Source: a virus
DNA: 34,160 bases
Strand: one strand, 5' to 3'
IMG/VR virus record: IMGVR_UViG_3300021401_000025
Coordinates: 1-34,160 of that record
Positions 13,500 through 33,934 of this stretch are shown in pieces. A program made the translations under genes and the position numbers. Position 1 is the stretch's first letter; every line of letters starts with the position of its first letter. Under the pieces are notes generated by a model, which was not told where the DNA came from, ran no database searches, and was given only the letters and a program-made list of their open reading frames with translations.

Positions 13500-13988
13500 A
13501 TGCTGCCCGTCAGCGCATGGCCGCCCGGACCTCCCGGCGCTTCGCTGTCGCCGTTCGGGCAACCGCGTCAAGTCAAGGTCTGCGGTAACGGGTTCGTGAT
13601 CCCAAAGGGCGCGTGGATCGTCGCCACCGGCGCAAACCGCGTCGTCATGTTCTACCCGCCCGTCGTCAACGTAAATCCGGCGCGAACGCCGGGGACCGGA
13701 CTACTTCCGGGCTCCATGCCGCGAAATCCACCCACCAAATGCGGCCCGCCGAAGCCGTCATGGGAGTGGCCCAAGTTTAACGACCAAGTGGAGTGGTATC
13801 GGGCGCACGGACGGAATGCGCCGCGCCCCGGCACCCGCCCGCCCAACTGGTTCGGCTGGAAATTCGTCCCCGCGCCCAGCTCCACCCTCGTTCCTTCCGG
13901 CGCGTCCGGGCTCGTGATCGCCGACGGCCAGAACGTCGTCATCACCGGCAGCGGATGCGCAACGATCACGCAGGCGTACAGTGTCTAA
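13500..13988 (+). CDS. Hypothetical virion-region protein (162 aa)
   Basis: The ATG follows the capsid stop directly with no spacer. The protein is rich in Pro, Trp and Gly, with WPPGPPGAS near the N-terminus, a central charged segment (WEWPKFNDQVEWYRAHGRN) and a beta-type C-terminus (GLVIADGQNVVITGSG). No family is recognised; a head-decoration or completion role is suggested only by position. Its stop overlaps the next gene by 8 bp. Confidence 0.65.
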   Translation: MLPVSAWPPGPPGASLSPFGQPRQVKVCGNGFVIPKGAWIVATGANRVVMFYPPVVNVNPARTPGTGLLPGSMPRNPPTKCGPPKPSWEWPKFNDQVEWYRAHGRNAPRPGTRPPNWFGWKFVPAPSSTLVPSGASGLVIADGQNVVITGSGCATITQAYSV

Positions 13989-15132
13989 CGGAACGCCCCC
14001 AATCCAGCCCGCGCCCGTCCCGCCGTCGATCGCGGGCATCCCGCAGCCCGTGTTCGGCAGCGGCTCCGCGACCGTCCCTGCCACCAACGTCCCGATCACC
14101 GGCTCGCCGATCCTTCCGCCGCCGCTCATCACCAATCCGCCCGGCACGCCGGTTTTCCCGCCCGTCTCGCCGAACACCGCGCCCGTCCCGGTCCCCGTCG
14201 GCCCGCTCGTCGGCCCGGCCGTCGGACCCGCGCCGGTCCCGCCCTCGATCCCCGGCGTCCCACAGCCGCAATTCATCCCGCCCGGCAGCGCAACCGTCCC
14301 GGCGAGCCTGTTCCCCAGCTTCACCACGACGCCGCCCTCGCCGCCGATCGTGTTCGCCAATGTGTTCAAGATCGGCGCGATCCCGCCGCCGTTGCCGTCG
14401 ACGCCCGGCCAAAACCCGCCGCCCGTCGTGCCTTCGTCAGTCGCCACCATCCCGCAACTGCCGTGGAACCCGAACCCGAACCAAGGGCCGGTTAACACCG
14501 TCCTGCCCGGCATCACGCCCCTCACCTCGCTCCACGTCGGGCAGTCGCTCGCACTCAGCACCGGGACATGGACCGGCAACGCGCCGTTTACCTATTCCCG
14601 CGTGTGGCTGCGCAACGGCTCGCCGATCGTAGGCGCGACGGGCGCTGGCTACACCCTCGTCGCCGCCGATCTGGGCGCGACGATCGGCGGCATCGTCACG
14701 GCGAGGGACACCAATGGGCTTGAGACGAGCGCGGGCGCTCCCCCTGTCGGGCCGGTCCTCGCCGCCATTCCGGTCGTCGGACCGGCGACCTTCAACCTCA
14801 CCCTGCCGCTCACAACCAACCAGCCTGTCGGGACAGTCACCGCCAGCAACAGCCCGACCGCCTTCGCGATCACGACCGGCAACCCCGCCGGTTATTACGC
14901 GATCAGCAACGCGGGCGCGCTGACCGTCACGGCGGCGGGCGCAGCGGGCATCCCAGCCGGCACGGCGAGCTTGGGCGTGACCGCAACCAACGCAGGCGGC
15001 ACGAGCCCGGCCGCCACCATCACCGTCAACGTGGCCGCGCTCCTCGCCGATCCCGAGGAAACGGACCTCCCCTCCCGGCACGCCCCCACGCACCGCACCG
15101 CACACCACGCCGCGCCGAGGAAAAAGCGGTAA
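13981..15132 (+). CDS. Ig-like, proline-rich virion protein (383 aa)
   Basis: Residues 1-175 are dominated by Pro and contain an internal repeat: APVPPSIAGIPQP with GSATVPA (residues 11-33) recurs at 84-108. From about 175 an immunoglobulin-like domain is visible (VGQSLALSTGTWTG, later GATGAGYTLVAADLGATI, the bacterial Ig pattern), followed by a second beta domain with cadherin-like features. The last 30 residues are H/R/K-rich. Ig-like domains are common on phage capsids and tails and are thought to bind cell-surface carbohydrate. The start is GTG at 13981. Pro-rich sequence makes shadow frames long on both strands. Confidence 0.72.
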   Translation: MSNGTPPIQPAPVPPSIAGIPQPVFGSGSATVPATNVPITGSPILPPPLITNPPGTPVFPPVSPNTAPVPVPVGPLVGPAVGPAPVPPSIPGVPQPQFIPPGSATVPASLFPSFTTTPPSPPIVFANVFKIGAIPPPLPSTPGQNPPPVVPSSVATIPQLPWNPNPNQGPVNTVLPGITPLTSLHVGQSLALSTGTWTGNAPFTYSRVWLRNGSPIVGATGAGYTLVAADLGATIGGIVTARDTNGLETSAGAPPVGPVLAAIPVVGPATFNLTLPLTTNQPVGTVTASNSPTAFAITTGNPAGYYAISNAGALTVTAAGAAGIPAGTASLGVTATNAGGTSPAATITVNVAALLADPEETDLPSRHAPTHRTAHHAAPRKKR

Positions 15133-15141
15133 AGATGGTTC

Positions 15142-15876
15142 ATGCTTGCGGCTTACATCAGCGAAGTGCAAAGCCACCTGAATGACACTCAGGGGCAATT
15201 CTTCACGATCCCGCAGCTAACCTCGTTCATCAATCGCTCGCGCCGCCGCATCGCCGCCGTCTCAGGCTGCATCCGCGTCATCCCGCCCGGAACGCAAACC
15301 AAGCCCAACCGCGAAGTCTATCCATTCTCCGAATGGGACAGCCTCGTGCAACAGCTCGTGCCGCAAGCGCAGTCGATCCGCGCCTGCCGCTCGCTCGCCA
15401 TCGGCATCGGCGGCGCGTGGCAGGAGGACGCCGACGGCATCTGGTCAATCACCGGCGGAACGTGGAAGCCAGTGTGGAAGCGGCTCGTGTGGACCGATTT
15501 TCAAGGCCGGTTTCGCATCTATGGCGGAACGTTCTACGGCACGATCAGTCAGCCGGGCTGGTACGCACAATATGGCGTCGGCCCGCTGGCCGCGCTCTAC
15601 CTCGCGCCAATCCCGTCCATCGCCGCGCCGATGGAAGTCGACCTCACCATCATCCCGAAACCGTTGCTCACCGACGGCGACCTCGAGCCCATTCCCTACC
15701 CGTGGACCGACGCCGTCAGCTATTGGGCGGCGATGCTCGCGCTCACCCAGCAGCAGCGCAAAGAGGATGCGCAAGCGATGGCGGAGCTGTTCAATTCCGA
15801 CTTGCCCATGTGCGCCGCCGTCGTCTGCCCGCAGATGATCCAGAACGTCTACGGCGCCACGATGAGGAGCGCGTGA
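15142..15876 (+). CDS. Head-tail adaptor/connector-like protein (244 aa)
   Basis: The N-terminus (YISEVQSHLNDTQGQFFTIP then FINRSRRRIAAVSG) follows the layout of phage adaptor proteins that dock under the portal: a helix, a 'W/FT...L..FIN..R..IA' segment and a C-terminal helical part. The middle is rich in Trp and Gly. Its C-terminal domain (WTDAVSYWAAMLALTQQQRK) is typical of connector helical bundles. Start 15142 has a weak ribosome site. Call based on pattern and position between capsid and tail genes. Confidence 0.65.
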   Translation: MLAAYISEVQSHLNDTQGQFFTIPQLTSFINRSRRRIAAVSGCIRVIPPGTQTKPNREVYPFSEWDSLVQQLVPQAQSIRACRSLAIGIGGAWQEDADGIWSITGGTWKPVWKRLVWTDFQGRFRIYGGTFYGTISQPGWYAQYGVGPLAALYLAPIPSIAAPMEVDLTIIPKPLLTDGDLEPIPYPWTDAVSYWAAMLALTQQQRKEDAQAMAELFNSDLPMCAAVVCPQMIQNVYGATMRSA

Positions 15877-16439
15877 TGGCGAAAGACGCGGGACAGATGC
15901 ACGGGCTGCACCAGCTCATGCGCTCGTGGTTGCTGGCCGAAGACCCCTACGGCGTGAACAACCGGATCGAGCCGACCATGGGAACGCCTGCCCCGGCGAT
16001 GATGGGCGGAGCGCCAGCGCCCGCAGCTCCCGCCGCACCCGACCCGCGCGCGGCGGCGGCGGGACCGCAAGCCGTCGCCAATCAGCTTTTTGGCGGGCAG
16101 GGCGCTCGCTATTCGGAAGCCGAGCGCGATCCGCGAGCGCAGGCGTGGGGCGAGACTGCCGTCGAGCGGTCGACAGCTCCGCCGCGTCTCAACGAAGGCG
16201 AGCGCAACGCGGCAGTCCCAGATCGCGCGTCGATGGCTGGCGAGAGCGCTGTCGATAAGGCGCTCAATCCGCCCATGGGCAGCGGCGGCGGCTTCTGGGC
16301 GCCGGGCGAGGCGGCCGACACGGCGAGCGCCGTCGGTCAGCAAGCCGTCGAAGGCGCGCTGGCGAAGAAAGCGCGAAGCAAGGTGGCGAAGGGGCGGCTC
16401 ACAGACCCGCAAGACCCGGACGACCGTCAACCCGAATGA
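15876..16439 (+). CDS. Ala/Pro-rich hypothetical virion-region protein (187 aa)
   Basis: After a short helical N-terminus (GLHQLMRSWLLAEDPYG) the protein is A/P/G-rich and likely disordered, ending in a basic stretch (LAKKARSKVAKGR). No family is recognised. GATGAGGAGCGCGTG precedes the ATG, which overlaps the adaptor stop (TGATG). Place in the operon suggests a virion or assembly role. Confidence 0.62.
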   Translation: MAKDAGQMHGLHQLMRSWLLAEDPYGVNNRIEPTMGTPAPAMMGGAPAPAAPAAPDPRAAAAGPQAVANQLFGGQGARYSEAERDPRAQAWGETAVERSTAPPRLNEGERNAAVPDRASMAGESAVDKALNPPMGSGGGFWAPGEAADTASAVGQQAVEGALAKKARSKVAKGRLTDPQDPDDRQPE

Positions 16440-16465: not shown

Positions 16466-18127
16466 ATGCCGATCCAATCTGATAATCCTTTTGACCTGAC
16501 AACGGTCGAGCAATGGCGCGGATTGAACCAACAATCCAAGCGCGGCTCGATCGACGATCAAGAGGAATGGTGGAATGAGAACTTCTTCGCCATCGGCCCC
16601 GGAAATCTGCGTACATGCTGGGGACCGTCTGCTCCCATTTACACCGCCCCGGCGGGGCTCACGATCCTTCGGATGTTTTTTGGGTTCTACGGCAATCAGA
16701 CGCCTCAGTTTGGCGCTCCTCCTCCCGGTGCCATGGGTTGGATGTTTCTATCTGATGGCACTATTGATGAAGTTGATTTGGCAAGTGGGGCGACGACTAG
16801 CCTCCGCACTTTCGGCACCATCTGGAACCCGGTAGCGCCGCAATATTGGGCGAGCGCGAAAGTCTGGCGACCGGCGTTCATCGGCTCGACCGTCGGCCAG
16901 CAAGGCGGCGTCCTGTTCGGCAGTCCCGCCTTGTCGCCGACCGGCGGCGGACCCGGCGGCCTTTACGCGTGGGACGGGGCGACGCTTTCGTCGCCCGGAA
17001 TGCCCGCCCCCGATTGGCTCACCGATCTGCAAGAGACGGACCCCGGCACAACCCCGCCGCCGATGCCGAACGGCTTGCCCGGCATCTATGCGATGGAAGT
17101 CTACAGCTCCCGCCTCTGGGTCATCGGCAAGGATGTCTGTTCGTTCTCCGCCCCCTCGAACGGCGCTGATTTCTCGACCGTCAACGGCGGCGGATCGTTC
17201 GGCTACTTCGGCGATCGGCTCGTGTACTCGTTCATGGACATCGCAGCGAGCGCCGGATACCTCTATTTTTTCGGCGACAGCTCGATCGACGCCATCAACA
17301 ACGTCACCCTGATCGGCACGCCCGGCCAGCTCTCCCAGCCGGTCACAACCGATTTCAATTACTTCAACGTCGATCCGCAAGTCGGCCAGCGGTTCCCGCG
17401 TCCGATCGGACGGCTGGGGCGCTACTTCACCATGTTCAACGGCGCAGGGATTTCGCTCCTGCAAGGCGGCGAAGCCGTGCCGATCGGCGACAAGGTGACG
17501 GGCGTGTGGAACACCCTCGACACGTCGCAATATTTGCCCACGTTCGCCCCGGCGACCATGTTTGGTTTCCGCGTCATGCTCCTCAATGGACGCTTCACCG
17601 ATCCGTTCGGCGTCACGCGCTCGTTGTTGCTGATGTTCCACCCGACCAAGGGCAACGAGTTCTGGTCCGTCGCCAGCCAAGGCTTGGAGCTGACCAACAT
17701 CGGCGCTTACGAACAGGATAGCATCCTCACGCCCTACGGGACGGACGGGCGCTCGCTCTATCGGCTGTTCGCACAGGCGAGCCCGACGCTCGTCAAGCGC
17801 CTCTCGACCAAGCAGCTCCGGGTGACATCCGGCAAGAACTCGGCGCTCACGCTCAAGAACGTCAAGCGGCTCTTTGCCGAGATTGCCGACAATGACGGGC
17901 GCGGCGTCTCGATGACCGGAACCGTCACCAGCGGCGGCGGCGGCATCCCCGGCGGCGTCGAGAGCGTCGATTTCGAGCTCACGCGCGGCGTCCCGTTCGG
18001 GATCGTCCCCTCGCCCCTGCACGGGGCCGGGATTTGGTCCGCTATTGACCTTTCCACCAAATCGCCGGATTTTACTTTGGAGCGGCTCCATCTGGCCGCC
18101 GAAGAACGCACCCTCTTTGGTGCGTAG
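16466..18127 (+). CDS. Tail protein, beta-propeller-like (553 aa)
   Basis: A 553-aa protein rich in Gly, Phe, Trp and Ser with repeated beta-type blocks (YAMEVYSSRLWVIGKD, AASAGYLYFFGDSSID, GRLGRYFTMFNGAGISLLQG), each resembling a propeller blade. Its start (NPFDLTTVEQWRGLN then GNLRTCWG) resembles the 'DGR..R.G' opening of podovirus tail hub or P22 gp10-type DNA-stabilisation proteins. That comparison is inference. The ATG at 16466 directly follows TTGACAT and has no Shine-Dalgarno; a TGA stop is only two codons upstream, so no earlier start is possible. A TTGACA-N16-GATAAT pair straddles the start and would place a promoter inside the gene. Confidence 0.68.
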   Translation: MPIQSDNPFDLTTVEQWRGLNQQSKRGSIDDQEEWWNENFFAIGPGNLRTCWGPSAPIYTAPAGLTILRMFFGFYGNQTPQFGAPPPGAMGWMFLSDGTIDEVDLASGATTSLRTFGTIWNPVAPQYWASAKVWRPAFIGSTVGQQGGVLFGSPALSPTGGGPGGLYAWDGATLSSPGMPAPDWLTDLQETDPGTTPPPMPNGLPGIYAMEVYSSRLWVIGKDVCSFSAPSNGADFSTVNGGGSFGYFGDRLVYSFMDIAASAGYLYFFGDSSIDAINNVTLIGTPGQLSQPVTTDFNYFNVDPQVGQRFPRPIGRLGRYFTMFNGAGISLLQGGEAVPIGDKVTGVWNTLDTSQYLPTFAPATMFGFRVMLLNGRFTDPFGVTRSLLLMFHPTKGNEFWSVASQGLELTNIGAYEQDSILTPYGTDGRSLYRLFAQASPTLVKRLSTKQLRVTSGKNSALTLKNVKRLFAEIADNDGRGVSMTGTVTSGGGGIPGGVESVDFELTRGVPFGIVPSPLHGAGIWSAIDLSTKSPDFTLERLHLAAEERTLFGA

Positions 18128-18195: not shown

Positions 18196-18276
18196 ATGGG
18201 TCCGAACACGCATTGGGATGACTTCACCGAAGATCGACGTGGCCGTCGGCGCGGTCGAAGGGGCAGGCGGCGGTAA
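18196..18276 (+). CDS. Arginine-rich micro-protein 1 (26 aa)
   Basis: A 26-codon gene with an ideal ribosome site (CAGGAGAACGCC-ATG). The first half (MGPNTHWDDFTED) is acidic and the last 13 residues are almost only R and G (RRGRRRGRRGRRR). The split acidic/basic design could self-neutralise before binding nucleic acid. It is first in a row of five such genes. No homologue is recalled. Confidence 0.6.
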   Translation: MGPNTHWDDFTEDRRGRRRGRRGRRR

Positions 18277-18281
18277 GGCCC

Positions 18282-18344
18282 ATGGCAAAACGGCTCCGAC
18301 AAACGCGACGCGCGCGTCGCATCCGCGCTCGTAAGCGCCGTTAG
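18282..18344 (+). CDS. Arginine-rich micro-protein 2 (20 aa)
   Basis: Twenty residues, of which ten are Arg and two Lys (MAKRLRQTRRARRIRARKRR). The pattern resembles protamines and the arginine-rich RNA-binding motif of lambda N-type peptides; that is analogy only. GGTAAGGCCC precedes the ATG five bases after the stop of micro-protein 1, so both are probably translated from one mRNA. Confidence 0.55.
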   Translation: MAKRLRQTRRARRIRARKRR

Positions 18345-18348
18345 GCCA

Positions 18349-18468
18349 ATGCGCCGAACTGGCCTCCGCAACACCCAGAATTTGCAGAGGCAGCTCAAGC
18401 CCAAAGGCTGGCGTCTGCCACGGTGGACGCCTCGCCTCAATTCGTACCGCAAAGGCAGGAGGATGTGA
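18349..18468 (+). CDS. Arginine-rich micro-protein 3 (39 aa)
   Basis: Thirty-nine residues with ten Arg and three Lys, and two Trp (GWRLPRWTPRL), no acidic residue. It starts 4 nt after micro-protein 2 stops, with no strong ribosome site of its own, so coupling to the upstream gene is likely. Its stop TGA overlaps the next ATG by one base. Confidence 0.52.
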   Translation: MRRTGLRNTQNLQRQLKPKGWRLPRWTPRLNSYRKGRRM

Positions 18469-18617
18469 TGGCGAAAGGCATCCGGCTTGGACGCCGCAGC
18501 CGCGTCGACCCGGCCGGGAAGGCGGGCGGCCAGAAACGACCGTCAACCCGCGTCCGCCGAGCGCGCGGACACCGGCAAGGAACCGGGCGCGGCAGACGAG
18601 GGCGGAGGAACCCATGA
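18468..18617 (+). CDS. Arginine-rich micro-protein 4 (49 aa)
   Basis: Forty-nine residues with fifteen Arg and three Lys and only one acidic residue (D14). The last part is R/G-rich (RQGTGRGRRGRRNP), an RGG-like composition known from RNA-binding tails. GGCAGGAGGATGTG before the ATG is a strong ribosome site. It overlaps both neighbours (TGATG upstream, ATGA downstream). Confidence 0.58.
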   Translation: MAKGIRLGRRSRVDPAGKAGGQKRPSTRVRRARGHRQGTGRGRRGRRNP

Positions 18618-18676
18618 GACGATCGCCGGGTCGAGGCGGCCGAACCGGACCCGTCAGACGCGGCGGCCGACGATGA
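18614..18676 (+). CDS. Arginine-rich micro-protein 5 (20 aa)
   Basis: MRRSPGRGGRTGPVRRGGRR: eight Arg and seven Gly in twenty residues. GGCGGAGGAACCC before the ATG is a strong ribosome site, and 4-bp overlaps (ATGA) join it to the genes on both sides. This unbroken coupling makes a chance ORF unlikely, although nothing is known about the peptide. Confidence 0.55.
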   Translation: MRRSPGRGGRTGPVRRGGRR

Positions 18677-18822
18677 GCGTTTGGGTCGTCATACACCCGG
18701 AAAGTGATCTGCCGATCGCCGGGATTTGGCAGAGCATGGAAGCCGCCTCCGAACACTGTCCAACCGACTATGTCCTGCTTAAAGTGGAATTGGACACAGA
18801 CCTAACGGCGGCTCCGCAATGA
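18673..18822 (+). CDS. Small hypothetical protein (49 aa)
   Basis: Unlike its neighbours this is an ordinary acidic small protein: a beta-type start (SVWVVIHPESDLPIAGIW), a helix (SMEAASEHCP) and YVLLKVELDTDL at the end. It may form a compact beta-alpha-beta fold. It overlaps micro-protein 5 and the RuvC-like gene by 4 bp each, linking the arginine-rich genes to the resolvase. Confidence 0.62.
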   Translation: MSVWVVIHPESDLPIAGIWQSMEAASEHCPTDYVLLKVELDTDLTAAPQ

Positions 18823-19349
18823 CAATTCTCGGCATTGACATCGGCGCGGGCGGCGCGCTCGCCGTCTTGACCGACGCGGGCGAGCTGCTCGACGTGCAGG
18901 ACATGCCGTGCTTGCGCGACGGCCCGGCAAAACGGAGAACCATCAATGCTCCGCTCTTGGCTGAAATCGTCTACAAGTCTCACGCCACTAGAGCCTTTGT
19001 TGAACGCGTCGGTCCTCGCCCTATGGAAGGAGCTGTCGGCGCTTTCTCCTTCGGAGATGCAAAAGGCGTTGTCCGTGGCTGTCTTGCTGCCGCAGCTATA
19101 CCCACCATCTTCATCACCCCCGTCACATGGAAGCGCGTCGTCGGCGTCCCTCCCGGCAAAGACATGAAGGACATGGCGCGCTCGAACGCCATCAACCGCT
19201 GGCCGAGCAAAGCCCAACTGTTCGCGCGCAAGATGGACGACGGCAGAGCCGAGGCGGCGCTGATCGGGCTCGCCGGGCTCCTGCGCTTCAACGATGTCGT
19301 CGAACTCATGCCGGTTGACCTTTTGAAGGCCCGCGCCGCTAAGGGGTAG
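18819..19349 (+). CDS. RuvC-like Holliday junction resolvase (176 aa)
   Basis: An RNase H-fold nuclease of the RuvC type that cuts branched DNA. The four acidic positions can be placed: D7 in ILGIDIGAGGALAVL, E62 in AFVERVGPRPMEG, D140/D141 and E145 in MDDGRAEAALIG. The TPVTWKRVVGVPPGKD segment (residues 100-114) is typical of phage RuvC-like proteins. Length matches the family. In phages such enzymes clear branched replication intermediates before packaging, which suits its place among late genes. The start overlaps the preceding stop by 4 bp. Confidence 0.85.
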   Translation: MTILGIDIGAGGALAVLTDAGELLDVQDMPCLRDGPAKRRTINAPLLAEIVYKSHATRAFVERVGPRPMEGAVGAFSFGDAKGVVRGCLAAAAIPTIFITPVTWKRVVGVPPGKDMKDMARSNAINRWPSKAQLFARKMDDGRAEAALIGLAGLLRFNDVVELMPVDLLKARAAKG

Positions 19350-19352
19350 TCC

Positions 19353-21044
19353 ATGCGCCCCCTACTCGATCTGCAATTTTTCGCAGATTTGCCGAAATTC
19401 CTCTGGTTCGATAACGGCGACGGCGGCGACGGATCATCCGGCAGCGGCGGCGATGCGAGTGGCGGGGACGCAGGCTCGCCGGGCAGCGCGAGCGCCGGGC
19501 CATCCGGTCAGGGCGGAACGGCGACCGGCGCACCGGCGGGCATGGGCGTCAGCGGCGAAGCCGCAGCTCCCGCTGGCACGAGCGCGACCGCGCCCGGAAC
19601 CGGGCCGGGAACCGGGACGGCGACGGCCGACGCCGGATTTGGCGGTCAAGGCGGCTCACCCGGAGGTGTGTCGGGTGGCGTCGCGGCGAGCGTCGGCGCC
19701 GGGCCGGGCGTCGCAGCTTCCGGCGGCGCAGCTCCCGGCGGAGCGGGCGGCACGGCGGGCAGCTCGACCAGCGGCGGCGGGACCGGCGGACCCGGCGCGG
19801 CGACCGGAGCTGGCGGCGGCGCTACCGGTGGACCGGGAGCGGCGACCGGCGGCGGCGGCGGAACCGCCGCAGGCGGATCGGGCATCAGCGCCAGCGTCAG
19901 AGCGGCGCTCCAAAACCTCTTGGGCGGCAACCCGGCCGACGCGCTCCGAGGCGCGGTCAGGAACTCCGCAATCGACTTCGGCCCACCGGGCGTCCCCAGC
20001 TTGGGCGTGCCGGAAGGCGTCGGCGGTCAGGGCGCCGCGCCACGCGGCACGGTTTCGGTTTCATCGCTTGGCCCGCCCGGACCCAACTTAGCCCAGTTAG
20101 CGCAACAACTGTTCGGATCGCCGCAAGCGCAGGCGGCGCGCAGCAGCATCTCGGCAGACACCGGGGACGAGTTCGGACCCACGAACACCACGAAAGGCAC
20201 GGGCAGCTCGACGGCGACTGCCGCCAATACTAACGCCGCGCCGAACTTTGGCGGCAAGGGCTTCGGCAGCGGCTCCCCAGCCGCCCCCTCGTTGTCGATC
20301 GGGCCGGGCGGCATCGGCTCCGACGCCGTCGCAGGGGGCTCAAGCCCGAATGCGGCTCCCGGTACGCCATCATTGTCGATCGGACCGGGCGGCATCGGCG
20401 CGGATGTCAACGCTGGACAGGGCGTCTCAACCTATGGCGACATGAGCGATGCGAGGGGCTTCGGGGGAACAAAGGGCGTCGGCGATCCCGGCGCCGCAGG
20501 CTCCAGCGCCGTTGGCACGCCTGCCACCACCACCGCCCTAGGCGGTGGACCCGGCAACGCGTCGGAAAGCCCGACAGGACCGAGCGCCGCTGCGCCAAGC
20601 TTTGGCGGCCAAGGCTTTGGCGGCTCCACTGCCCCGGCTGTCGCGCTTGGCGGCGGTCCCGGCAACGCGTCGGAAAGCCCGACAGGCACGCCAGCCGCGC
20701 CCGCAGCCGTCACCGGGCTTGGCCCCGACGCTGCCGTTTCCGCCACCGTCAACTCGCCGACCAGCGTCCCCGGACTGAGCCCGCAAAACCAAGCCTTAAT
20801 GGATCAAATACAAGCCGCAGTCGTGCAAAATGTCCTGAACTATGCAGGCGTGAAATTCGGTCCCCCACAGCGCGAAGGACAGCCGCGCGCCCTTAGCAAT
20901 GCTCCGCCCGAGGCGTTCACGCTGCCCAACGCCTCGCCTCAACAGCCGTCATCCCTCCAGCAGCTCATTCAGAGCCTCGTCAGTGGCGGCGCTCCGGGTC
21001 CGGGGCTCTCCAGCCTTGCCCAAAACGCCCAGTTCGGAATTTGA
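19353..21044 (+). CDS. Gly/Ala/Ser/Pro-rich low-complexity protein with LQFFA N-terminus (563 aa)
   Basis: Residues 5-12 (LDLQFFAD) match the short N-terminal tag seen on many phage head and scaffold proteins. Residues 20-180 are almost pure G/A/S/T/P, similar in composition to silk-like or PE-PGRS sequences. Then come in-frame repeats: SLSIGPGGIG twice 27 residues apart, and LGGGPGNASESPTG twice 36 residues apart. Only the final 85 residues look folded (NQALMDQIQAAVVQNVLNYAG). AAGGGGTAGTCC precedes the ATG. A structural or internal virion role is inferred. High GC makes long shadow frames here, but only this frame has continuous coupling to its neighbours. Confidence 0.72.
   Translation: MRPLLDLQFFADLPKFLWFDNGDGGDGSSGSGGDASGGDAGSPGSASAGPSGQGGTATGAPAGMGVSGEAAAPAGTSATAPGTGPGTGTATADAGFGGQGGSPGGVSGGVAASVGAGPGVAASGGAAPGGAGGTAGSSTSGGGTGGPGAATGAGGGATGGPGAATGGGGGTAAGGSGISASVRAALQNLLGGNPADALRGAVRNSAIDFGPPGVPSLGVPEGVGGQGAAPRGTVSVSSLGPPGPNLAQLAQQLFGSPQAQAARSSISADTGDEFGPTNTTKGTGSSTATAANTNAAPNFGGKGFGSGSPAAPSLSIGPGGIGSDAVAGGSSPNAAPGTPSLSIGPGGIGADVNAGQGVSTYGDMSDARGFGGTKGVGDPGAAGSSAVGTPATTTALGGGPGNASESPTGPSAAAPSFGGQGFGGSTAPAVALGGGPGNASESPTGTPAAPAAVTGLGPDAAVSATVNSPTSVPGLSPQNQALMDQIQAAVVQNVLNYAGVKFGPPQREGQPRALSNAPPEAFTLPNASPQQPSSLQQLIQSLVSGGAPGPGLSSLAQNAQFGI
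20292..20395 (+). repeat. In-frame direct repeat (SLSIGPGGIG units)
   Basis: TTGTCGATCGG(G/A)CCGGGCGGCATCGGC occurs at 20292 and 20373, 81 nt apart, encoding the same ten-residue block. It is part of the low-complexity protein. Confidence 0.75.
20541..20686 (+). repeat. In-frame direct repeat (LGGGPGNASESPTG units)
   Basis: Two copies of a 38-nt block (20541-20578 and 20649-20686) differ at two positions, both silent third-codon changes. The period is 108 nt or 36 codons. Near identity at DNA level suggests recent duplication or gene conversion. Confidence 0.8.
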
Positions 21045-21050
21045 GGTAAC

Positions 21051-21143
21051 ATGGCGCGTGGATCGACAGCGCAGAAACGAGCGCGGCGGAAAAACCTCCG
21101 CCGAGCGCGCCGTAGGCGGCGCGGCCCCGGAAAGAGGAAGTAA
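21051..21143 (+). CDS. Arginine/lysine-rich micro-protein 6 (30 aa)
   Basis: Thirty residues with twelve Arg and four Lys and no acidic residue (central KNLRRARRRRRGPG). GAATTTGAGGTAAC before ATG 21051 gives a usable ribosome site, and it lies 6 nt after the 563-aa gene and 1 nt before the next. It is a separate occurrence of the arginine-rich class seen at 18196-18676. Confidence 0.58.
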   Translation: MARGSTAQKRARRKNLRRARRRRRGPGKRK

Positions 21144-21144
21144 A

Positions 21145-21468
21145 ATGGCGAGCGAACGCGAATGGCCGAGGACGCGGGAGACGGACGGGACGGAGCGCGG
21201 CAGTCCGAGCGCGTTCTATCAGAGCCGGGATGGCGTGCTGAAACAAGGGCGCTCACTCGCCGGGCCTTTGCGAACGGGAACCGAGCCCCGCGTCGGCCCG
21301 CGCGCAGGCGGGCGAAGCGCAACCGGCGAAGGGCGTGACAGCGACTTCGGCATGGACAGGATTTCGCCGCGAGGCTTCGATCCGATCGGCACGCCCGACG
21401 ATCGCATCGGCCCGCAGCCCTCAAGCGATCTTGTCACCGAACAAGTCCGACGCCGCCGAGGCGACTAA
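21145..21468 (+). CDS. Hypothetical polar protein (107 aa)
   Basis: A 107-aa protein rich in R, G, D, S and P, probably largely disordered, with an acidic-basic alternation and a basic end (EQVRRRRGD). No family is recognised. AAAGAGGAAGTAAA precedes the ATG, a good ribosome site. It lies directly after micro-protein 6. Confidence 0.6.
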   Translation: MASEREWPRTRETDGTERGSPSAFYQSRDGVLKQGRSLAGPLRTGTEPRVGPRAGGRSATGEGRDSDFGMDRISPRGFDPIGTPDDRIGPQPSSDLVTEQVRRRRGD

Positions 21469-29047: not shown

Positions 29048-29422
29048 TCACGCCTTAGCCCTTTTGGCTTCGGAGAGCGACTTCGCCCTCTCCGACCTCG
29101 CCGCGCGATCCTCGTCCGTCAAATTTACGGTCCTCAAGGGGTTGGCTCCCATTCTGTAAGGCCAGTTCGGACACAAAACCGCAACACACTTTCGGACTTC
29201 ATCCGATTGCTCGCCGCAGCAGTCCATGCATTTCGCCCTGATGACCTCCAAAATGGGGGCGGCAACTAATCCAGCCTCGTCAAATTCACGTCTCTCAATT
29301 TGGCGGGGATCGCGGCCGATGAGTTCTCCCCCGTCGACCGCAAAAGGCGATTTTTCCAGCAAGATCGCACGCGCCGCGTCTTTCCGCTCGCGGGTCCAAC
29401 TGTCGATCGGGGGGATTTTCAC
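29048..29422 (-). CDS. Cys-rich phage hypothetical protein (124 aa)
   Basis: A Cys cluster at residues 65-84 (KCMDCCGEQSDEVRKC then LCPNWPYRMG) fits a small zinc-binding family common in prophages and phage early regions; function unknown. The N-terminus is polar and the last 25 residues are basic (RAARSERAKSLSEAKRAKA). The start is GTG 29422, overlapping the HTH gene stop (GTGA). It is the second-to-last gene of the leftward operon. Confidence 0.72.
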   Translation of the reverse strand: MKIPPIDSWTRERKDAARAILLEKSPFAVDGGELIGRDPRQIERREFDEAGLVAAPILEVIRAKCMDCCGEQSDEVRKCVAVLCPNWPYRMGANPLRTVNLTDEDRAARSERAKSLSEAKRAKA

Positions 29423-29706
29423 TGCCAGCGTCGCCAGTAGCCGACGAACTCGCGCGCTTGGTTCAGCTTCGCCGCCACGCTCGCGGGCGTGTCAGGCACG
29501 ATCCGCGCTTCGCCGTCCGACAGCTCGATCGACTTGCCGAACACCGCCGCCACCTTGAGGAGCGTCGGCAAATGCGGCTCCGTCACCCGCCCGGTCATCC
29601 AGTTGTAGATGGTCGCCTCAGAACACCCGGCTTTGTGCGCCACATTCCACGCGCTCATGCCCGAACGGTTGATGAGCCGCTTCACCGCAACAAACACGTC
29701 GCTCAT
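29419..29706 (-). CDS. Cro/CI-type helix-turn-helix protein (95 aa)
   Basis: A compact DNA-binding protein. Residues 20-41 form the HTH (WNVAHKAGCSEATIYNWMTG), followed by LPTLLKVAAVFGK, the usual third and fourth helices. No oligomerisation or cleavage domain is seen, so it is Cro-like rather than CI-like. AGGGGAGGAAGC before ATG 29706 is a strong site; upstream in-frame codons are shadow sequence. Overlaps both neighbours by 4 bp. Confidence 0.82.
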   Translation of the reverse strand: MSDVFVAVKRLINRSGMSAWNVAHKAGCSEATIYNWMTGRVTEPHLPTLLKVAAVFGKSIELSDGEARIVPDTPASVAAKLNQAREFVGYWRRWQ

Positions 29707-29915
29707 GCTTCCTCCCCTTTCGGCAGCTCGCAGCCCAACAGCTTGCGCAAATCCGCCTCGTCTTCCGGCGTCAGCCCGCGCTCCTCCCTCAACTCGGCGA
29801 CGACTTCGCAGTTCGCGCACCGCGTCTGCGTATCCGGGCCGCCGTAGCTGAAAACATTCGACTTGCAGTCGGCGCAGATAAACTCATGTGGGCGGTGCGT
29901 CGCCAAGATCGCCAT
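29703..29915 (-). CDS. Zinc-ribbon protein (70 aa; start may be TTG 29906)
   Basis: C14/C17 (ICADC) and C33/C36 (CANC) form a zinc ribbon; the C-terminal half is an acidic helix (TPEDEADLRKLLG). Similar small proteins occur beside phage recombination genes. GGAGG lies directly against ATG 29915, which is too close, but nine bases before an in-frame TTG at 29906, so the 67-aa form may be the true product. It starts within the 3' end of the exonuclease gene. Confidence 0.7.
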   Translation of the reverse strand: MAILATHRPHEFICADCKSNVFSYGGPDTQTRCANCEVVAELREERGLTPEDEADLRKLLGCELPKGEEA

Positions 29916-30618
29916 CCTCCGGGTTGATGAGCCTCAGTTGCACGTACTCGTCGGACTGATAGGCGACGTCGGCGGGCGTCTCGACGTGGCGCACCACGGA
30001 ATAAGCCCCGAGCGCCTTCGCCCGCTCCGTCGTCTTGTCGAGAGCATCGCAAAAGCTGTCGAGCGCGGCGGCGAGGATCGACTGATAGTGGGGATCGCGA
30101 AGAATGATCTTATGGAACGGCGGCGTGCGCGGGTTGTAGGTGTAGAAGTGGACCGCGTCGAACTCGTCGCCGACCAGCAAATGCCCTTGGGTCTGCGCGA
30201 TGTAGGCGTCGTCCGGGCCTTCAAGCAGATATTGGAGCTGGGTCCACGGCGCCGGGCTCTTGATTTCGAGGCTTTCCTTGTGGCCTTTGAAAATCCGATC
30301 CGGGCTCGCGCCGATCCGGCCGTCGTTCGACGTGACGAAGCCGCCCGGCTCCAAGGTGACTTCGTTCACGAACTCGAATTGCTTGACGGCGTAGGGCTCG
30401 TTCTCTTTCCCGCCCGCCACCCATTTCACAAATCCAATTTCGTCATCCATCGTCTCGTGCAGTAGCCGTTCGGCCACTAGCCGATAGAGGTACTTGATCG
30501 CTTGCTTCGACGGCGCTCCCGCTGGCGTCACGATCTTGTGGAAGTTGCTGCTCGTCGGCTTGCCGAGGCGTAGCCGATACCACTCGCCCGACCCCTGTTC
30601 GACCCGATAGAGCTTCAT
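29884..30618 (-). CDS. YqaJ/lambda-type exonuclease (244 aa)
   Basis: A 5'-3' dsDNA exonuclease that makes 3' overhangs for the ERF annealing protein. Motifs seen: EWYRLRLGKPTSS (12-24), ENEPYAVKQFEF (72-83), D107 in RIGASPDR, E118-x-K120 in LEIKSPAPW and QTQGHLLVG (142-150), the standard order of the YqaJ family catalytic core. TTTGGAGGAAGCGC before ATG 30618 is a strong ribosome site; 40 extra upstream codons are out-of-family basic sequence. It lies three genes after the ERF gene, forming a Red-like pair. Confidence 0.9.
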   Translation of the reverse strand: MKLYRVEQGSGEWYRLRLGKPTSSNFHKIVTPAGAPSKQAIKYLYRLVAERLLHETMDDEIGFVKWVAGGKENEPYAVKQFEFVNEVTLEPGGFVTSNDGRIGASPDRIFKGHKESLEIKSPAPWTQLQYLLEGPDDAYIAQTQGHLLVGDEFDAVHFYTYNPRTPPFHKIILRDPHYQSILAAALDSFCDALDKTTERAKALGAYSVVRHVETPADVAYQSDEYVQLRLINPEDGDLGDAPPT

Positions 30619-30994
30619 GCGCTTCCTCCAAAGCCTTGAGCCTCGCCTCGATCGCCGCGAACCGCGCGTCCGCGCCCCTCGCGAAGCCTTCCATGTACAC
30701 TGCCGCTTCCAGCATCCTCTGCATCGCTTCGGTTTCACCCGCCACGAGCGTTTCGATCGCCGTGAAGTCGCGAAATTGTCCCGGCTTTCGTTCGGTCATG
30801 TTCTCCCACTCCAAGTCTTCACGGTTCGTGGCTTTCGCCTGCGCGTCCGAGCCGTAGCGCACGAACACCGTCCAATGGTTGAAGCCCGTAATGACGCCGC
30901 GTTCGAGCTTGCCGCCCGTTCCTTCCACCAAAAGATAGCGGTTGCCGGTGTAGAGGACCGTCCGCCCGATGTCGGCTTCCGTCGGCTCGATCAT
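30443..30994 (-). CDS. Hypothetical protein overlapping the exonuclease start (183 aa)
   Basis: The first 125 residues look genuine: a beta-rich domain (IGRTVLYTGNRYLLVEGTGG, WTVFVRYG) and a helical part (FAAIEARLKALEEAHEAL). The last 55 residues overlap the exonuclease gene in another frame and have biased composition, yet no stop occurs earlier. ATG 30994 overlaps the stop of the 32-aa gene (ATGA). An internal in-frame ATG with GGAGTGGGAGAAC (MTERKPGQ) could give a second, shorter product. Confidence 0.58.
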   Translation of the reverse strand: MIEPTEADIGRTVLYTGNRYLLVEGTGGKLERGVITGFNHWTVFVRYGSDAQAKATNREDLEWENMTERKPGQFRDFTAIETLVAGETEAMQRMLEAAVYMEGFARGADARFAAIEARLKALEEAHEALSGRTGVGRVVSATPRQADEQQLPQDRDASGSAVEASDQVPLSASGRTATARDDG

Positions 30995-31417: not shown

Positions 31418-32194
31418 TCATCTCGCTTTGCTCGCTTTGCTTTTCTTTTTCTCGCGCAGCGCCATCACAAGACGCGGAAAATCGCGCTGCCGGATGTCCT
31501 GCAAACTCTCCGCGCCCGAAACCATCAGTCTGAGAAAATTCGCCTCGTCGCTCGCCGTCGCCGCGATCAGATCGGTCAGCTCTTTGATTTGCGTCGCGTC
31601 AATCAGGGCTTCCATCGCGCCCCTCGCGTCGTCGTCCTTGCCCCTGCGAACGACGTTGCACAAATCGTCGACAATGTATCTTTTCGCGTACCTCCGCGAC
31701 GAACCGCGCGCCTGCAACGCATTGCGCCCCGGTCCCGCGTCAGGCGGCAGCGTGTAGGTCGACGTGCGCTCCCAGCCCCAGCCCGAAAGCGTCCCGGTGA
31801 TGGTGATGCTTTCCTTGTTGTCGACTGAGGCGAACGAAATCGCGAAACCGTGCTTGGCGAGAAGCGGTCTGAGAATGACATCCATGTTCTCGATGGTCGT
31901 GAAGCTGTAACGCCCCATGACCTTGCCGTCCTTCACCAGCTCGACGGTCCCGTCGCGCTCGACTTGCGGCAGCTCCGCCGACAGCGCCGCGAAATGCTCC
32001 ATGAAGGCTTCGCGCGCTTGGTCGCCCAAAACCTCGCGGCGCATCCGCATCACGACTTCCATCTTGTCGGCCGGGATGTCGGGATTGGCGAGCATCTGCA
32101 TGAGGACGCCCGCGAACGTCTCCGCTGGCGCGGCCCGCTCGACGCGAACGATGTCGCCCTTCTCGATCTGGCCTTCGTTGCCTTGGTCGTTCAA
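31418..32194 (-). CDS. erf: ERF-family single-strand annealing recombinase (258 aa)
   Basis: Promotes annealing of complementary single strands in phage recombination. The ERF pattern is visible: FMEHFAALSAELPQVERDGT, GRYSFTTIENMDVILRPLL, KHGFAISF, ITITGTLSGWGWERT, and the signature G-S-S-R-R-YAKRYIV. The C-terminus is Lys-rich. I choose TTG 32194 because GGGGGAAGGAAGT lies directly before it and it overlaps the TGA of the 37-aa gene; the longer GTG start at 32272 would run through that gene in another frame. Confidence 0.86.
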   Translation of the reverse strand: MNDQGNEGQIEKGDIVRVERAAPAETFAGVLMQMLANPDIPADKMEVVMRMRREVLGDQAREAFMEHFAALSAELPQVERDGTVELVKDGKVMGRYSFTTIENMDVILRPLLAKHGFAISFASVDNKESITITGTLSGWGWERTSTYTLPPDAGPGRNALQARGSSRRYAKRYIVDDLCNVVRRGKDDDARGAMEALIDATQIKELTDLIAATASDEANFLRLMVSGAESLQDIRQRDFPRLVMALREKKKSKASKAR

Positions 32195-32304
32195 ACTTCC
32201 TTCCCCCTTTGCAGCGCTAGCAGCATCTCCAGTTGCGCGATGCGCTTGCGCAAGTCGTCGATGATGTCGCACAGGGCGATGATGGCTCTGTCTTGGGCGT
32301 TCAT
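32191..32304 (-). CDS. Small helical protein (37 aa)
   Basis: MNAQDRAIIALCDIIDDLRK then RIAQLEMLLALQRGKEV: a single amphipathic helix with leucine spacing that could form a coiled coil. It overlaps the previous gene by 4 bp (ATGA), and its TGA overlaps the ERF TTG start. Too short for most gene finders, yet fully coupled. Confidence 0.6.
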   Translation of the reverse strand: MNAQDRAIIALCDIIDDLRKRIAQLEMLLALQRGKEV

Positions 32305-33412: not shown

Positions 33413-33592
33413 ATGCCCGACTTTGCCCCCTCCAGATGCCCCTGCGGCTACCCGTGGGAACTCTGCCCAAGGCGGGACGAGTTGTTAGGCGAAGCCGCTT
33501 CGTGTCCCCTTGTTGTCGATCGTGAGCGCCTGATGGCGCGGCGTCCCGCCGGTCAGCCCCAGATGGACCCACGTGTCATATTCGTAAATTAG
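33413..33592 (+). CDS. Possible small Cys-rich protein, convergent with endolysin (59 aa)
   Basis: The N-terminal half (SRCPCGYPWELCPRRDELLG, then ASC) has four cysteines and protein-like composition, but the rest overlaps the endolysin 3' end on the other strand. GATAGGA before the ATG is a modest site. Kept as a tentative gene. Confidence 0.35.
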   Translation: MPDFAPSRCPCGYPWELCPRRDELLGEAASCPLVVDRERLMARRPAGQPQMDPRVIFVN

Positions 33593-33934
33593 CTGGTCGA
33601 TCCCCAGCTTCTTCATGTGGGGCGATAGGGCGACGCAGATGGCGCGCGGCGTGCCGTAGCCCGGACAACTGAAATCCACCGCCAGCCCACTCATATGGGC
33701 GGAACTCTTTGAGCCCCCAACCGCCGCGTTCACCGCCGGGCTGCGATAGCCCGAACTGACCAAGATTGGCTTGTCGCCCAGAATGGTGCGGACCTCCTCC
33801 ATCACGTCGGCTGTGCGCTTCAAATTCGCGCGCTCCGGGCTCCCCACCGGCGGCACGTTGGGAATGCCTTTTCTGGCCGCCGTCTGGCTGTCCGTAAATT
33901 CCTCAAGGGTGAAATGGGCGGTGAGTTCGGTCAT
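33485..33934 (-). CDS. Endolysin, peptidase M15 family (149 aa)
   Basis: A zinc D-Ala-D-Ala/L-Ala-D-Glu type peptidase that cuts peptidoglycan cross-links at lysis. The zinc ligands are H80 and D87 in SAHMSGLAVDF and H124 in WVHLGL; SSGYRSPAVNAAVGG (60-74) is the preceding family block and FTLEEFTDSQTA (8-19) the N-terminal one. Length fits a single-domain M15 endolysin. There is no signal peptide, so release needs a holin. ATG 33934 follows TAGGATGGCGCC. Dyad copy 5 lies 68 nt upstream. It is separate from the late operon and on the opposite strand. Confidence 0.9.
   Translation of the reverse strand: MTELTAHFTLEEFTDSQTAARKGIPNVPPVGSPERANLKRTADVMEEVRTILGDKPILVSSGYRSPAVNAAVGGSKSSAHMSGLAVDFSCPGYGTPRAICVALSPHMKKLGIDQLIYEYDTWVHLGLTGGTPRHQALTIDNKGTRSGFA

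Follow-up and report, generated by a model that had tools for sequence, protein, structure and literature searches.

A conserved array of arginine-rich microprotein genes beside an exchangeable nuclease gene in a clade of tailed phages

Arginine-rich packaging proteins and the array in the window

On the prevailing view, tailed phages package DNA through the force of a motor, with small cations and no protamines. Proteins VII and mu of adenovirus, by contrast, are small and arginine-rich and condense a double-stranded (ds) DNA genome. Baculovirus P6.9, likewise small and arginine-rich, condenses the dsDNA genome of its virus (literature on P6.9). Among bacterial viruses, protein J of the Microviridae (phiX174 type) is a short arginine-rich peptide that escorts the genome into the capsid (PMC7096446), and junction nucleases, those of the phage RuvC and RusA types included, let branched DNA be packaged: the T4 resolvase gp49 (endonuclease VII) is found in association with packaging proteins and releases branched DNA that has become stuck in the packaging motor (PMC10893049). 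Here, we describe a row of very short arginine-rich genes that leads into a gene for a RuvC-like Holliday junction resolvase in the IMG/VR virus record IMGVR_UViG_3300021401_000025, of which positions 1 to 34,160 (34,160 bases) were analysed and are referred to as the window.

All genes of the array lie on the plus strand. MP1 (microprotein 1; 18196-18276; 26 amino acids (aa), 10 of them arginine) has an acidic and aromatic head, WDDFTED, followed by an arginine/glycine tail, and MP2 (18282-18344; 20 aa, 10 arginines) is built around the core TRRARRIRARK. MP3 (18349-18468; 39 aa, 10 arginines) reads GLRNTQN...WRLPxWxPRLxSYRKGRR, while MP4 (18468-18617; 49 aa, 15 arginines) carries the motif LGxRSRVDPAG and an arginine/glycine tail. 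The fifth gene (18614-18676; 20 aa, 8 arginines) encodes a shortened MP5 with the C-terminal SPxxGxRTGPVR-type motif only, and MP6 (21051-21143; 30 aa, AQKxAxRRNLRKARRRRR) follows downstream of the resolvase gene. These coordinates and compositions agree with a first-pass annotation made from the sequence, which had counted 53 arginines among the 154 residues of the first five peptides and 16 basic residues in the sixth (12 arginines and 4 lysines). It had also described the genes as joined by overlaps or very short gaps, and we indeed find gaps of 5 and 4 nucleotides (nt) and then overlaps of 1, 4, 4 and 4 nt, the last two being those of MP5 with an acidic 49-aa open reading frame (ORF; 18673-18822, plus strand) and of that ORF with the RuvC-like gene at 18819. 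The array genes are apparently translationally coupled. To call most of their ribosome sites strong was slightly generous: the sites are clear at 18196, 18468 and 18614, fair at 21051 and weak at 18282 and 18349.

Taken together, the six peptides contain 35% arginine and 2.7% aspartate plus glutamate, with a net charge of +72. By comparison, arginine makes up 5.7% of residues in eight of the window's large genes, and its share of arginine plus lysine is 0.61 as against 0.84 in the peptides; the enrichment is therefore not explained by guanine-cytosine (GC) content alone.

The array differs from each of the systems named above. Protein J serves single-stranded DNA and a T=1 capsid with one or two proteins, whereas here five to seven unrelated families occur in a dsDNA phage that is tailed and encodes a terminase and a portal. 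P6.9, VII and mu belong to eukaryotic viruses without a linked resolvase, in contrast to this coupled phage array; and T4 gp49 and the RuvC/RusA-type resolvases are not known behind an arginine-rich array, whereas here three unrelated nucleases occupy one slot. We do not claim homology with J: none of MP1 to MP7 (the seventh family is introduced below) had a significant match in PHROGs, and the terminase, portal and head protein genes form a tailed-phage context. The peptides share the small size and very high arginine content of protamines (20-49 aa, 35% arginine), and the nearest functional parallel to the array would be viral protamines or J-type proteins, with membership in either only putative. 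The first-pass annotation knew of no such array among the phage systems described. MP4 and MP5 gave no meaningful sequence match in the PDB and no match in 50,697 phage records, and no description of such a system was found in a literature search that covered mostly open-access articles, without most subscription journals. An arginine-rich array in tailed phages thus appears to be undescribed in the literature searched.

Conservation of the array and its nuclease slot

Relatives were collected as 11 loci through the RuvC-like protein and by a capsid-protein scan that led to 80 loci, with some loci fetched by MP4 itself; homologue counts for neighbouring genes were taken over 92 loci. The interval from the nozzle-like gene upstream of the array to a conserved 107-aa gene downstream of it defined 65 distinct regions. 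In the 11 loci found through RuvC, the peptides recur in unchanged order, some with GTG starts. At least three of the seven arginine-rich families were present in 65/65 regions, in the same interval and with their order mostly kept, counts that are partly biased by the loci fetched with MP4. Loci selected by the capsid alone form the unbiased set, and among those with both anchors 50/50 hold at least three families and one nuclease. The regions are related by descent, so none of these counts is made up of independent observations. By profile, MP4 was found in 65 regions, MP3 in 64, MP5 in 62, MP2 in 58, MP6 in 38, MP1 in 30 and MP7 in 17, while the short MP5 copy of the window was identified by eye. 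Proteins of 20-60 aa that are missed by gene callers and family libraries can thus belong to the most constant part of a phage clade's gene set, since MP4 is present in all 65 regions yet has no PHROG match.

The ratio of non-synonymous to synonymous differences (pN/pS) was 0.37 for MP1, 0.28 for MP2, 0.41 for MP3, 0.41 for MP4, 0.43 for MP5 and 0.37 for MP6, that is 0.28-0.43 for the peptides compared with 0.32 for RuvC, with almost every pair below 1; this simple ratio is rough, as pS was about 0.7 and close to saturation. Judged from these codon comparisons, the peptide families are under purifying selection. For MP1-MP4, 153 of 160 copies had a start codon close to where the profile begins, with lower proportions for MP5 (29/45) and MP6 (24/30). 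The core of the Shine-Dalgarno (SD) sequence preceded 46 of 48 distinct copies of MP4 and 9 of 46 of MP3, which may rely on coupling. The first-pass annotation had made the reading of these frames as genes depend on whether starts, ribosome sites and frames are kept in relatives, and this check, made on the relatives, came out in favour of genes.

Could the micro-ORFs nonetheless be chance frames of GC-rich DNA rather than genes? SD-preceded micro-ORFs rich in arginine and lysine were counted in 1000 dinucleotide shuffles. Such ORFs do turn up in the shuffled window (mean 2.9, compared with 5 observed), and an unusual window-wide total was accordingly rejected. On the plus strand between 18128 and 18680, however, three were present against a shuffled mean of 0.06, and three were never reached in the 1000 shuffles. 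Chance is excluded by this clustering and, above all, by conservation, as order, frames and starts are kept and pN/pS is low over the 65 regions; we give it practically no weight. The micro-ORFs are real, ordered genes.

Two members of the row in the window need a different description from that first given. In most relatives MP5 is a protein of about 56 aa with the motif PWSDGAWPSDW, and the shortened form, reduced to the RTGPVR-type C-terminal motif, is common to the window and its nearest relatives; the fifth micro-gene lies where it had been placed, but its 20 aa are a shortened form of a longer protein. The acidic 49-aa ORF between MP5 and RuvC, which had been counted into the row, had no homologue in the other loci and is seen in this genome only, as a lineage-specific ORF outside the conserved array.

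MP7, the seventh arginine-rich family, has the core MVLVPASRxAARxRRRxRR and a varying position in the array (examples in three relatives' loci are L051:13470-13559, L064:16328-16414 and L074:14767-14847). Further tiny, nearly pure arginine ORFs stand outside any family (L107:5621-5727, L141:5697-5753 and L011:4630-4677; e.g. MARRRRHKRGRRRGRRY), which suggests that array members turn over quickly. In some relatives the MP1 profile also matched close to the capsid gene (e.g. L071:3284-3499); these matches sit in other ORFs and were rejected as true MP1.

The RuvC-like gene of the window (18819-19349, plus strand) matched phrog_1770 (E-value 5.2e-26) and had no match to Pfam RuvC; D7, E62 and D141 are conserved in its family. 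Relatives without it carry a different nuclease at the same place, and exactly one nuclease follows the array in each of the 65 regions: VRR-NUC in 33, RuvC-like in 22 and PD-(D/E)XK in 10. Three VRR-NUC examples scored 24.3-32.4 bits with Pfam VRR_NUC (PF08774; cut-off 23.8), and the type has a PD...ExK motif, with the D and ExK conserved in all 33. The PD-(D/E)XK type scored 24.6-29 bits with PDDEXK_15, exceeding the cut-off of 27 in one of three examples, matched the RusA-like resolvases of phrog_244 (E-value 1.9e-9) and has a D...ExK motif conserved in all 10. From their family names, the VRR and PD-(D/E)XK types are predicted to act on Holliday junctions here. An overlap of 1-4 nt between the nuclease gene and MP5 was seen in 48 of the 62 cases measured. 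On the capsid tree, much of which is weakly supported, the RuvC-bearing members group on a single branch (support 94), and at least 4 changes are needed to account for the nuclease labels. The nuclease types thus switch while the array stays, so that the nuclease can give way to an unrelated enzyme with the peptides kept: three unrelated nuclease families are interchangeable in one slot. The coupling to a RuvC-like resolvase proposed in the first-pass annotation is real in the window, but the general partner of the array is the nuclease slot, with RuvC confined to one clade.

Late position of the array and a possible role in packaging

Directly upstream of the array, a tail protein gene (16466-18127, plus strand; homologues in 73/92 loci) probably encodes a tail nozzle of the P22 gp10 type. 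A low-confidence model of this protein (predicted local distance difference test, pLDDT, 43) gave only four Foldseek matches at E≤0.001, all to podophage tail, portal-tail or head-tail complexes (Pan3, VP1, P22 and Sf6; best 5.6e-6). With the nozzle-like gene just upstream, the array lies in the late virion block; the head and packaging genes of the window are a terminase (phrog_2), a weak SU10-like portal match and a head protein (phrog_9953, E-value 6e-23). In P22- and T7-type phages, genes for the needle or for internal virion or ejection proteins likewise sit directly after the nozzle gene, but the internal proteins of T7 and P22 are mostly large, unlike the arginine-rich array proteins of 20-58 aa. 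Genes for a YqaJ exonuclease (29884-30738), an ERF annealase (31418-32272), a Cro/C1-type regulator (29419-29820) and an endolysin-like M15 peptidase (33485-33934) are all on the minus strand at 29-34 kb. Because YqaJ and ERF sit on the other strand, the resolvase belongs to the late virion block beside the peptides, apart from the recombination genes. Their presence as a pair means that branched DNA is to be expected in this phage.

This position bears on three alternatives, each less likely than the cofactor role weighed below. The peptides could bind RNA or ribosomes, in the manner of arginine-rich motifs, and regulate late expression or translation: in length and residue make-up, MP2 and similar short conserved peptides broadly resemble RNA-binding arginine motifs and very small ribosomal proteins. 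Antiterminators of the lambda N type, however, are early genes whose products bind nut-type RNA hairpins, whereas the array is in the late block, and MP4 and MP5 match no ribosomal or other solved protein and none of the peptides is in PHROGs, although RNA targets were not searched for; we consider this role improbable. Somewhat more improbable is host takeover by compaction of the host nucleoid or a block of host machinery. Such polycations would be expected to bind host DNA and ribosomes non-specifically, but phage takeover genes are usually early, and the array has a late structural position, the direction of the virion genes and a resolvase linkage. Neither the lambda-N-like nor the host-attack role, both raised in the first-pass annotation together with protamine-like condensation, found support. 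Small size, positive charge and a place in the late block would also suit membrane-disrupting lysis helpers resembling disruptins. Disruptins, though, are amphipathic, hydrophobic enough for a membrane and encoded near lysis genes, while the six peptides are strongly hydrophilic, with 19% hydrophobic residues and Eisenberg means of -0.63 to -1.21, and the M15 endolysin-like gene is more than 12 kb away on the other strand, so that a lytic function is very improbable.

Among the roles first proposed, protamine-like packaging fits best. We give a probability of roughly 0.45 to a late packaging module in a clade of podovirus-like phages, in which protamine-like peptides coat or condense the DNA and the nuclease removes branches. 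The arginine-rich microproteins would be produced together, through translational coupling, after the tail-nozzle gene; as protamine-like polycations, they would bind viral DNA and condense it or neutralise its charge during or after encapsidation. Short motifs such as WDDFTED in MP1 and PWSDGAWPSDW in MP5 may anchor some of these peptides to proteins of the capsid or portal, and the junction-cutting nuclease from the same message would clear branches off recombining concatemers and so make the DNA packageable. We infer DNA binding, virion presence, condensation and cooperation with the nuclease from the protamine-type arginine density, the location directly after the nozzle-like gene and the single nuclease per region. 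Basic, nearly acid-free peptides made from the nuclease's message would most simply bind the same DNA, and the precedent of T4 gp49 makes a packaging role for the slot nuclease reasonable.

Several points weigh against this packaging module. The charged-domain packaging rule is not followed by tailed phages with ATP-driven motors, which stand as a group apart (PMC7096446). The genomes, at about 42 kb, are of ordinary size and condensation is not obviously needed. More distant relatives, with a capsid protein 36% identical, lack the array, which therefore appears to be specific to this clade. The peptides are known here from their genes, and their production, DNA binding and virion location are predictions. 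Finally, motifs such as RSRVDPAG and RTGPVR are kept beyond the needs of charge alone. These non-charge motifs suggest protein partners and speak for the nearest rival, in which the peptides are cofactors of DNA processing: inside the cell they would bind junctions or concatemers that are being replicated, aid the nuclease or terminase and stay outside the head. So does the way in which the array and a junction-type nuclease are strictly linked and overlap, whichever of the three families the enzyme comes from. Yet the peptides persist when an unrelated nuclease replaces the old one, which makes a specific nuclease contact unlikely, and five to seven families seem many for a cofactor; we regard such a non-virion role as unlikely.

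It is possible, though doubtful, that the packaging module amounts to a protamine system of the clade's own, in which five to seven unrelated arginine-rich microproteins coat and condense the genome of a tailed dsDNA phage while the motor packages it, in an obligatory pairing with a junction-cutting nuclease of exchangeable type. If so, a multi-family arginine-rich array beside an exchangeable resolvase would challenge the view of packaging as protamine-free and make it testable.

Relatives in databases and neighbouring genes

A DNA-level search found no cultured or deposited phage relatives, and searches of bacterial genomes with the capsid and nozzle proteins gave no match that would point to a host. 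Protein searches with capsid, nozzle and terminase retrieved only two Manatee Spring phages, with Hydrogenobaculum phage 1 and one more record added for the terminase; the two Manatee Spring phages, related through the capsid, are without the array.

The 107-aa gene that bounds the array downstream (21145-21468, plus strand) has homologues in 59/92 loci and no PHROG match. Between RuvC and MP6, the window encodes a 563-aa protein rich in glycine, alanine and serine (19353-21044) with relatives in 20/92 loci only, and in several relatives MP6 directly follows RuvC with no such gene in between. Further upstream, the product of 13981-15132 weakly matched families of Hoc-like head decoration and of major tail proteins and possibly has an Ig-like domain. 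Two long overlapping ORFs in different frames, 15142-15876 and 15333-16439, have homologues in 82/92 and 73/92 loci, respectively, and the true start of the second probably lies further in.

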